NCBI GenBank assembly: GCA_025355995.1 | Contig: JANXYQ010000008.1 | Location: forward strand, 1-64,000 | Direction: 5' to 3' | DNA from: Spirochaetaceae bacterium | Lineage (GTDB): Bacteria > Spirochaetota > Spirochaetia > Treponematales > Rectinemataceae | Length of the DNA stretch: 64,000 nucleotides | Part shown: positions 52,652-62,024 of the stretch, in pieces | Layout of the letters: each line of letters opens with the position of its first letter | How positions within the stretch are numbered: position 1 is the first letter of the stretch | Notes under the pieces: generated by a model | Told to the model about the DNA's origin: nothing | Databases searched by the model: none | Seen by the model: the letters and a program-made list of their open reading frames with translations, nothing else | Made by a program: the position numbers and the translations under genes

Positions 52652-53734
52652 ATGCGTACGTTTAAAGATGACATGGATGCGGCGAAACGGAGGGTGGAGG
52701 CCTGGTGGGAGGGAGAGATCTTGGATCGGCCCGCCCTGGCGGTAACCGCTCCCATGGAGCCGCGCTACTGCCTCCCGGTGGCTCAGGCAAAGGACCTGGA
52801 CGCGCTCTGGACCGATCCGCGGGTCGTCATCCCCCGCCTTGAGAACAGTATGGCCGCTACCTGGTTCGGGGGCGAGGCCTTTCCCGTCCTCTTTCCGGTG
52901 AGCACGAACTTGGTTAGCATCACCTGCAAATTCCTCGGCGCGGAGAACACCTACGTCGACGACTATACTACCTGGTCCAAGCCCTTTCTCCGCAGCCTCA
53001 GCGACCGCCCGACCCTCCGATTCGACCCGAGCAATCCCTGGTGGAAGAAGACTATCGCCCTCCTCGAGGCTGGAGTCTCACGGATCGCGGAACGCGGCCT
53101 GGCCTGCTACCTCGGGAATCCCGATCTCAACGGCCCCACCGAGATCCTGGCGGGGATACGCGGCGCCCAGGAGCTGGCCCTGGATTTCTACGACGCGCCC
53201 GAGTCGATCCGGCCGGCGATACGCGAGGTCCAGGACGCCTGGTTCGAGGCCTGGGAAGGGACGAGGGCGATAACCGGAAAGTCGGGCGGCTCGTTCTTCT
53301 GGATGGGCATCTGGTCATCGCTGCCCGCGGTCGACCTGCAGAGCGACGTCTCCTGTCTCATCTCCCCGGAGCACTTCAAGGTCTACTTCCTCGACTTCAT
53401 CCGCGAGCAGACCGAGCGCATCGAGCGGACCGTCTACCATCTGGACGGCCCCGGGGCCGTCCGCCACCTGGACAGCATCCTCGCCCTGCCGAAGCTATCG
53501 GCGGTCCAGTGGGTCCAGGGCGCCGGCGCGGGCCCCCTCACCGGATGGCTCCACGTCATGCGACGCATCCTCGATGGGGGGAAACCGGTCTTCGCCTCCT
53601 GCGAGCCCGAGGAGGCCCTGCCCCTGCTCAAGGCCCTGGGCGGGAAGGGCGTCTTCCTGAGCGCTAGGTGCTCCAGCGTCGAGGAGGGCGAGCGGCTGCT
53701 CGACAGCGCCGCGCTCTGGGCGGGAGGTCATTGA
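52652..53734 (+). CDS. Uroporphyrinogen decarboxylase-fold protein (UroD/MtbA-like)
   Basis: A 360-residue protein. The pattern is that of UroD-fold proteins of corrinoid or sugar-catabolic loci (KDDMDAAKRRVEAWWEGEILDRPALAV; FVNFIREQ-like LDFIREQTERIERTVYHLDGPGAVRHLDSIL). VVWLQ-like SAVQWVQGAGAGPLTGW follows in the C-terminal half. The family includes methyl-transfer and hydrolase-like enzymes; no haem genes are nearby, so a haem role is unlikely. It is divergent from an AraC regulator and followed by glyA after 54 bp. Confidence 0.75.
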   Translation: MRTFKDDMDAAKRRVEAWWEGEILDRPALAVTAPMEPRYCLPVAQAKDLDALWTDPRVVIPRLENSMAATWFGGEAFPVLFPVSTNLVSITCKFLGAENTYVDDYTTWSKPFLRSLSDRPTLRFDPSNPWWKKTIALLEAGVSRIAERGLACYLGNPDLNGPTEILAGIRGAQELALDFYDAPESIRPAIREVQDAWFEAWEGTRAITGKSGGSFFWMGIWSSLPAVDLQSDVSCLISPEHFKVYFLDFIREQTERIERTVYHLDGPGAVRHLDSILALPKLSAVQWVQGAGAGPLTGWLHVMRRILDGGKPVFASCEPEEALPLLKALGGKGVFLSARCSSVEEGERLLDSAALWAGGH

Positions 53735-59758: not shown

Positions 59759-59803
59759 CGGGCGTTTCTTTTTTCTTCGCCCCGTTTCTGCTACACTGAA
59801 GCC

Positions 59804-61153
59804 GTGATCGACCTAACGAGCTACGTCAACAAGACGGTACCCTTCAAATTCAATGGCGTCGAGCTGCGCTTCGACCTGTCCCACGCCCTCTTCTCGTCCT
59901 TCGATATCGACGTCGGGACGCGGCTCCTCCTCAAGACGGCGGCTCGCGATCCGGCGCTCGCCTCGGCGCGGCGGATCCTCGACGAGGGCTGCGGGGTGGG
60001 GGTGATCGGGCTCTGCGCCGCCAAGGCCTTCCCCGAGGCCGAAGTGGTCCTGCGCGACCGGGACAGTCTCGCGGTCGCCTTTGCGGAGCGCAACAGGCTC
60101 GCCAACAAGCTGAAAGGCGTCACCGCCTGGACCGATCCGGCCACGGGCTAGGCGCGCGCCGCCAAGAGCGCCCCGCGGGTCGAGCTCGGCCTCATCGCCG
60201 ACGGCCTCGAATTCGGCCCGGGCGAGGACCGAGGCTACGATTTCGTCTTCTCGAACCTCCCGGCCAAGGCGGGCGCCCCCGTCCTGGCGCGCTTTTTCGA
60301 CCGCCTCTCGGGCAGGCGCGGCAGACCCCTCCTCGTGCCCGGCGGGCGGGCGGGGATAGTCATCGTGAACCCCCTCGCCGAGGCCGCCGCGGCCTGGATC
60401 GCCGATTCGGCCCTCACGGTCGTGGCGGAGGCGCGGGGAAGCATGCATAAGGTCTATATCGTCGAGCGGCCTGGCGATTCCAGGAGCGAAGCGGCGGCGG
60501 ATGCCTCCGGCGCGGATCCCTCCGGCGCGGGGCCGGAGCTCGAGGCCTATCTTCGCGACGAGGCGCGCTTCAAGCTCGCGGATTCCTCGTATCGCGCCAA
60601 GGGTTTCTGGGGCCTGCCCGAGTTCGATACCCCGAGCTACGGCAGCGCCGTGGCAGCCGACCTGGCCTCCCGCGCCTGCGCCGGCGTCCGCGACGCCCTG
60701 TTCATCGATCCGGGCGTCGGCCACATGGCGATCTGGGCCGCCCGGGAGCTAGGGGTGAGGCGCGTAACCGCCGCCTCGCGCGACGCCCTGTCGCTGAGGG
60801 CCGTCGGGATCAACCTCTCCGCCCTGCCCGAGCGCTCCCGGCCCTCCTACGATAGCCTCGACGCGTTGGGCGCGGCCGAGCTCCCCTCCGACGCCTTCGA
60901 CCTCGTCGTCGAGAGCCCGGATGTGGTGCCCGAGCGGGATTGGATCGGCCCGGCCTGGGCCCTGGCGGAGCGCGTCCTTCGGCGGGGTGGGGTTTACCTC
61001 GCGTACTGCTCGCCCACGGAGATGACCCGGCTCGAGAAGCGAAGGCCCTCGGGAGGGCTCGAGGAGGCGGCCGGGGGCGGGCGAGCCCGATGGAGCCTCC
61101 TCGGCCAGAAGCGAAAGAAGGGCTTCATCGCCTCGGCGTGGCGGAAAGGTTAG
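59804..61153 (+). pseudogene. Two-domain RsmC-like methyltransferase with an in-frame TAG
   Basis: One continuous frame of 450 codons, interrupted only by TAG at 60149-60151. The first part has the SAM-binding motif I (RILDEGCGVGVIGLCAAK) and acidic motif II (VVLRDRDSLAVA). After the stop the frame continues with VFSNLPAKAG, the NPPx-like catalytic region, then a second, degenerate methyltransferase-like domain (FIDPGVGHMAIWAARELG). The whole resembles RsmC/RlmG-type rRNA guanine methyltransferases. The product without read-through is 115 residues. It could be a recent nonsense mutation, a sequencing error or a recoded stop; the rest of the frame is intact. Confidence 0.75.
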
Positions 61154-61283: not shown

Positions 61284-62024
61284 ATGACGAAGACTGAAAC
61301 CGCTATTCTCGATTCCAAGACTCCCGAGGACTACATCGACAGGTCCCTCAAGGCCCGCCTTCCCCCCGCCGCCAAGGCCAAGCTCGCGCGGCTCTGGATG
61401 GAGACGACGGGTTATACGAAAGAGGACATATTGCGGGCGCGCAACCGGCACCCCTACTGGAAGCGCAAGAAGATGGAGGGCTCGGCCGAGCGGACCCGCC
61501 GCCGCCTCGCCGCCCACGACTATTCGGGCGGGGCCTCGGTGCAGTGGGACCGGGCCCTCGTGACCGAGTTCCTGGGCCTCAACCGCAAGGGAGTCGACGG
61601 GCGCTACGTCCAGAAGGACTGGCAGCTCGCGGAGCGATTCGGCGCCACGATCCCCTCGATCCAATACATGAGGCGCAAGCTCAGCAAGGTCGAGCTCCTC
61701 CTGGGCTCCCGCGCCTCGCAGGGCAGGGTAGTCGAATACCTCCTCCGCGCCGAGTCCGTGCTCTCGAGGGGCAAGGAGGCCGTCGAGGAGCTCGAGGCCG
61801 GCCGCAGGGCAAGCGCGAAGATCGCCCGTCCTTCCGCTACGAAATCAAAGGCCAGGAAAATCTCCGGCAAGTCGGCCTCCGCGAAGGGCGCCGGAGCGAA
61901 AAAAGCCGCGGTAAAAAGGGCCGAGCCTCCTAAGGCAGCGCGGCGCTCGGGGACGAAAAAAGGCGGCAAGCCGGCCAAGTCAGCTGCGCCCAAAAAGGCC
62001 GCGAGGAAAGCGCCCAAGAAATAG
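61284..62024 (+). CDS. Protein with a Lys/Ala-rich histone-H1-like tail
   Basis: A 246-residue protein. Residues about 1-165 form a helical domain of unknown family (YIDRSLKARLPPAAKAKLARLW, then KEDILRARNRHPYWKRKKM, TIPSIQYMRRKLSKVE). The last 80 residues are almost only Lys, Ala, Ser, Pro and Gly (KSKARKISGKSASAKGAGAKK...), as in H1-like nucleoid proteins. It probably binds DNA or RNA (inference). No Shine-Dalgarno is seen before ATG 61284. A TTGACA lies at 61254-61259, only 24 bases upstream, which would place transcription start close to the ATG. Confidence 0.65.
   Translation: MTKTETAILDSKTPEDYIDRSLKARLPPAAKAKLARLWMETTGYTKEDILRARNRHPYWKRKKMEGSAERTRRRLAAHDYSGGASVQWDRALVTEFLGLNRKGVDGRYVQKDWQLAERFGATIPSIQYMRRKLSKVELLLGSRASQGRVVEYLLRAESVLSRGKEAVEELEAGRRASAKIARPSATKSKARKISGKSASAKGAGAKKAAVKRAEPPKAARRSGTKKGGKPAKSAAPKKAARKAPKK

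Follow-up and report, generated by a model that had tools for sequence, protein, structure and literature searches.

An in-frame stop codon in a methyltransferase gene

We found that a gene predicted to encode a tandem SAM-dependent methyltransferase, at positions 59804-61153 (forward strand) of the window (the whole stretch of DNA analyzed, 64,000 nucleotides), is interrupted by a single in-frame TAG codon, and that this codon is best explained as a probable nonsense mutation of recent origin; the chromosomal gene is otherwise well kept. The source genome is a 4.50 Mb draft of 138 contigs, 95.13% complete. The features of the locus are shown in Table 1.

Table 1. Features of the interrupted methyltransferase gene
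Feature	Positions	Strand	Description
Promoter-like -10 box TACACT	59792-59797	+	Ends 6 nt ahead of the GTG start; putative function
ORF ahead of the TAG	59804-60151	+	115 residues: beginning of methyltransferase domain 1, SAM motif included, followed by TAG
DEGCGVG, SAM-binding motif I, residues 60-66	59981-60001	+	D60, G62, G64 and G66 invariant in 21 of 21 aligned proteins
In-frame TAG, codon 116	60149-60151	+	Variable loop; Ala/Glu in the four nearest relatives
Continuation of the frame	60152-61153	+	333 codons and terminal TAG; remainder of domain 1 and all of domain 2
NLPAKAG, residues 151-157, position of catalytic motif IV	60254-60274	+	N151, P153, A154, K155, A156 and G157 invariant in 21 of 21 aligned proteins
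GTG, earliest in-frame ATG/GTG/TTG after the TAG	60335-61153	+	272-aa ORF without NLPAKAG
PGVG, residues 303-306, degenerate motif I of domain 2	60710-60721	+	P303, G304 and G306 invariant in 21 of 21 aligned proteins

Translation of the 450 codons gave 448 sense codons, the TAG at codon 116, and the terminal TAG at 61151-61153. The preliminary description had claimed exactly this, one TAG in an otherwise open frame, and no other stop was found; its placement of the motifs was also right: DxGxGxG precedes the TAG, and NLPAKAG and the second Rossmann domain follow it. The GC content of codon positions 1, 2, and 3 is gene-like on both sides of the TAG (0.66/0.46/0.90 before, 0.72/0.57/0.89 after), and homologues continue through this position as one chain. 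These features set the region apart from a frame that is open by chance. Other same-frame ORF pairs that we checked in the window (FeoB/DinB, MurB/Na-H exchanger) were separate genes, not broken ones; because such pairs can prove to be different genes, a frame that stays open past a stop says little by itself, and the argument rests on the homology.

The TAG borders a GC palindrome, GGCGCGCGCC, and lies in a loop between the helix 88-100 and the strand 125-128 of the AlphaFold model. In the alignment, this loop is rich in indels, varies in length, and is absent from many homologues. A comparison with relatives at this codon, which the preliminary description had proposed, gave GCC, GCG, and GCC (Ala) and GAA (Glu) in the four nearest ones, and none of the 29 other aligned loci had a stop codon at the position. 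A special residue would not be expected at this site.

Protein family and fold

The 115-residue part matched the Pfam family MTS (PF05175, 3.1e-17), and for the 333-residue part neither Pfam nor NCBIfam gave a match at E <= 1. AlphaFold, run on the read-through window protein with five relatives, returned two Rossmann-type halves (pLDDT 84.3, pTM 0.84). By the model, by Foldseek, and by superposition, a tandem two-domain Rossmann fold extends over the full length, as it does in RsmC (16S rRNA m2G1207 methyltransferase; PDB 3dmf, 2zul, 2pjd) and in RlmG (23S rRNA m2G1835 methyltransferase; PDB 4dcm). Superposition on RsmC 3dmf aligned 352 residues of model residues 5-449 (VIA Z 28.5, rmsd 4.4), with a Foldseek E value of 2.5e-15; the same number of residues was aligned with RlmG (Z 27.6, rmsd 4.6), at a structural identity of 8%. 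On this evidence, the predicted product of the intact gene is a SAM-dependent methyltransferase of two tandem domains that fold like RsmC and RlmG.

The order of the two domains is the reverse of that in RsmC and RlmG. These enzymes carry their catalytic motifs in the C-terminal domain, and the motif of RsmC is NPPFH. In the window protein, motif I and the motif-IV-like NxPAKAG of its family are both in the N-terminal domain, which is the recognizable catalytic one, and the C-terminal domain is degenerate; the residue that precedes PGxG at the motif-I position of domain 2 is Asn in 14 proteins, Glu in six, and Asp in one of the 21. The sequence matches agree with this order: the N-terminal domain of the window protein (profile 17-160) matches the C-terminal domain of RsmC (chain 194-339), and a match was also found to the C-terminal domain of RlmG (chain 182-301). 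The profile reaches solved relatives only through the N-terminal domain (about 10-186). Its best sequence match was MJ0882 (PDB 1dus; E 7.9e-20), a single-domain MTS methyltransferase that superposes over 190 residues (Z 22.7, rmsd 2.9); unlike the window protein, MJ0882 (194 residues) has no second domain.

In the scan against the NCBIfam equivalogs, the 115-residue piece scored 39.1 bits against a cut-off of 295 for RsmC and 34 against 468 for RlmG, and the 333-residue piece had no match; the two pieces were scored separately, which lowers the scores. From the fold match, the reversed order of the domains, and the motif pattern, the intact protein probably works like a tandem RNA methyltransferase, but we do not assign it to RsmC or RlmG. 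The conserved spirochaete family that it represents is of some interest, as it combines the RsmC/RlmG fold with a recognizable catalytic domain in the N-terminal half. Nothing on this methyltransferase family, or on the reading through of amber codons in the lineage, appeared among the literature listings examined, which included PMC7056703 and PMC4119055.

Conservation of the gene and state of the interrupted copy

A search with the part behind the TAG found homologues in 41 of 58 genomes. Within the family, the source genome included, the figure is 28 of 30, and the two genomes without a match have completeness values of 79% and 69%. In 38 of the 41 genomes, the homologue sits in one uninterrupted frame of 410 codons or more. 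The three exceptions are the source genome itself, G054, whose matches fall on two contigs, and G022, which has a frameshift. The interrupted homologue of G022 (L023:776-2073) either was broken independently of the window gene or reflects a mistake in the assembly.

Invariant columns were defined from 28 relatives, with L023 left out because of its frameshift, and the window gene kept all of them, 19 of 19 before the TAG and 19 of 19 after it. Private changes were counted at sites where two outgroups agree. Behind the TAG (184 sites), the window gene and its closest relative each had 17 private amino-acid changes; before it (89 sites), they had one and four, respectively. Private nucleotide changes behind the TAG, at codon positions 1/2/3, were similar in the two, 19/15/27 in the window gene and 16/17/38 in the closest relative; the third-position share is nominally slightly lower in the window gene. 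By these measures, the sequence behind the TAG shows no visible decay. The stop may be of recent origin, a sequence error, or without harm to the cell.

The promoter-like box is also still kept at the interrupted copy. A TANNNT box was located 4-9 nt ahead of the start in 11 of the 24 loci examined, the one in the source genome among them, and the distance was 6 or 7 nt in each of the 11; in 2,000 shuffles the mean was 1.1 loci and the maximum five. This suggests a conserved sign of leaderless transcription in the methyltransferase gene family.

Expected termination at the TAG codon

The preliminary description had also proposed a check of the genome for amber suppressor tRNA or Pyl genes, and searches for PylS and for CUA tRNAs found none. 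A search for PylS (TIGR02367) gave no match in the 95.13% complete draft, and none of the 30 family genomes had one above the cut-off of 178; three had weak partial matches (19.7-20.5 bits). MttB (PF06253), the one methylamine methyltransferase family searched for, had no match in the genome either. Release factor RF1 was present (496.6 bits; cut-off 423.25). None of the 40 Rfam tRNA matches (RF00005), all of which were read by ARAGORN, had a CUA anticodon, in a detected set that is incomplete (Ile GAT and Cys GCA were not found) and from which a divergent tRNA-Pyl could escape. A pattern for a CUA anticodon loop gave six matches (control pattern, 14 + 14). Those that fall inside tRNAs are all in tRNAs of other anticodons, and ARAGORN found no CUA tRNA at any of the six loci. 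A pyrrolysine or suppressor reading of the TAG was rejected on the lack of PylS, MttB, and a CUA tRNA and the presence of RF1.

TAG is a common terminator in the window, where it ends 19 of the 49 gene-like ORFs, picked by composition, or 17 of 47 when the two pieces of the methyltransferase gene are left out. Thus, neither the rarity of TAG nor the loss of RF1 that mark an amber-reassigned genome was found. The conservation of the stop among orthologues that marks programmed readthrough was also lacking at the 29 other loci, and the RNA behind the TAG folds no better than its shuffles (z = 0.32). Taken together, these results lead us to expect ordinary termination at the codon.

Explanations for the interrupted frame

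In a recent nonsense allele, RF1 would stop translation at the TAG and release a product of 115 residues, the first half of domain 1. The SAM loop would be kept and the NxPAKAG segment and domain 2 lost, so the truncated product should be inactive. The locus has a private inactivating stop and intact orthologues in relatives, as nonsense pseudogenes have; other bacterial nonsense-allele pseudogenes likewise show one private in-frame stop in a frame that is otherwise kept, and only the gene differs. Two points count against a nonsense allele. The gene is kept in 28 of the 30 family genomes, and the two misses are incomplete, so its loss would be unusual; and a base-call error would leave the frame just as free of decay. 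We infer that the base is real and the allele recent. The preliminary description had offered three options, a recent mutation, an error, or a stop that is read through. The first two fit all the data, with no decay behind the TAG, uninterrupted relatives, and a retained promoter-like box, and the third had no support in any test that was run, from the missing PylS, MttB, and CUA tRNA to the ordinary RNA fold and the site itself, which holds no conserved residue.

It is possible, at a lower probability than a nonsense mutation, that the TAG is a consensus or base-call error, or the base of a minority strain, in the draft assembly, and that the living population has an intact gene. The copy departs from an intact gene at one codon only; no decay follows, and the promoter-like box is in place. 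The assembly is fragmented and incomplete, the gene is retained across the family, and the TAG abuts the GC palindrome. Against this, the codons of the four nearest relatives are all at least two bases away from TAG, so a single wrong base would suffice only if the true codon were yet another one, and nothing else looked broken among the selection of ORF pairs checked in the window. Whether nonsense allele or error, the locus is of little importance beyond its main use, which is to be kept out of counts of amber recoding.

Translational readthrough, in which the TAG would be read as an amino acid to give a 449-residue enzyme, is unlikely. The frame behind the TAG is conserved as in functional relatives, and the variable loop would tolerate an inserted residue, but the recoding tests described above speak against it, as does the use of TAG to end the methyltransferase gene itself. 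It keeps a small probability because the assembly is a draft of 138 contigs, about 95% complete, in which some tRNAs were not detected. It is slightly more improbable still that a near-cognate tRNA, or a suppressor tRNA that went unseen because the draft lacks it, reads the TAG at this site at a useful frequency and so supplies a low dose of the full-length methyltransferase; if true, a gene that looks leaderless would have acquired a new, private readthrough switch. Least credible, and very unlikely, is a gene that works as two pieces, an N-terminal chain of 115 residues and a chain of 272 residues restarted from the GTG at 60335. That codon is present and in frame, but it lies about 180 bases downstream of the TAG, and no Shine-Dalgarno-like stretch was seen ahead of it by eye. 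It is also beyond the NxPAKAG segment: residues 117-177, with the invariant motif, would be in neither piece, which makes a two-piece enzyme unlikely.

Neighboring and other genes of the window

Elsewhere in the window, a 360-aa protein at 52652-53734 has, by eye, the look of a uroporphyrinogen decarboxylase-like methyltransferase, with no Pfam match at 0.01. The upstream neighbor of the interrupted gene encodes a dCache-HAMP-GGDEF protein; downstream are a gene for a Lys-rich protein and then recG (recG by eye), and the dCache-HAMP-GGDEF, Lys-rich, and recG-like neighbors recur beside homologues. The gene at 61284-62024 encodes a protein of 246 aa whose tail is rich in Lys and Ala and for which Pfam gave no match. 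Conservation of its N-terminal ~163 residues next to the methyltransferase was seen in 14 of the 30 loci L001-L030, and recG is often the following gene.
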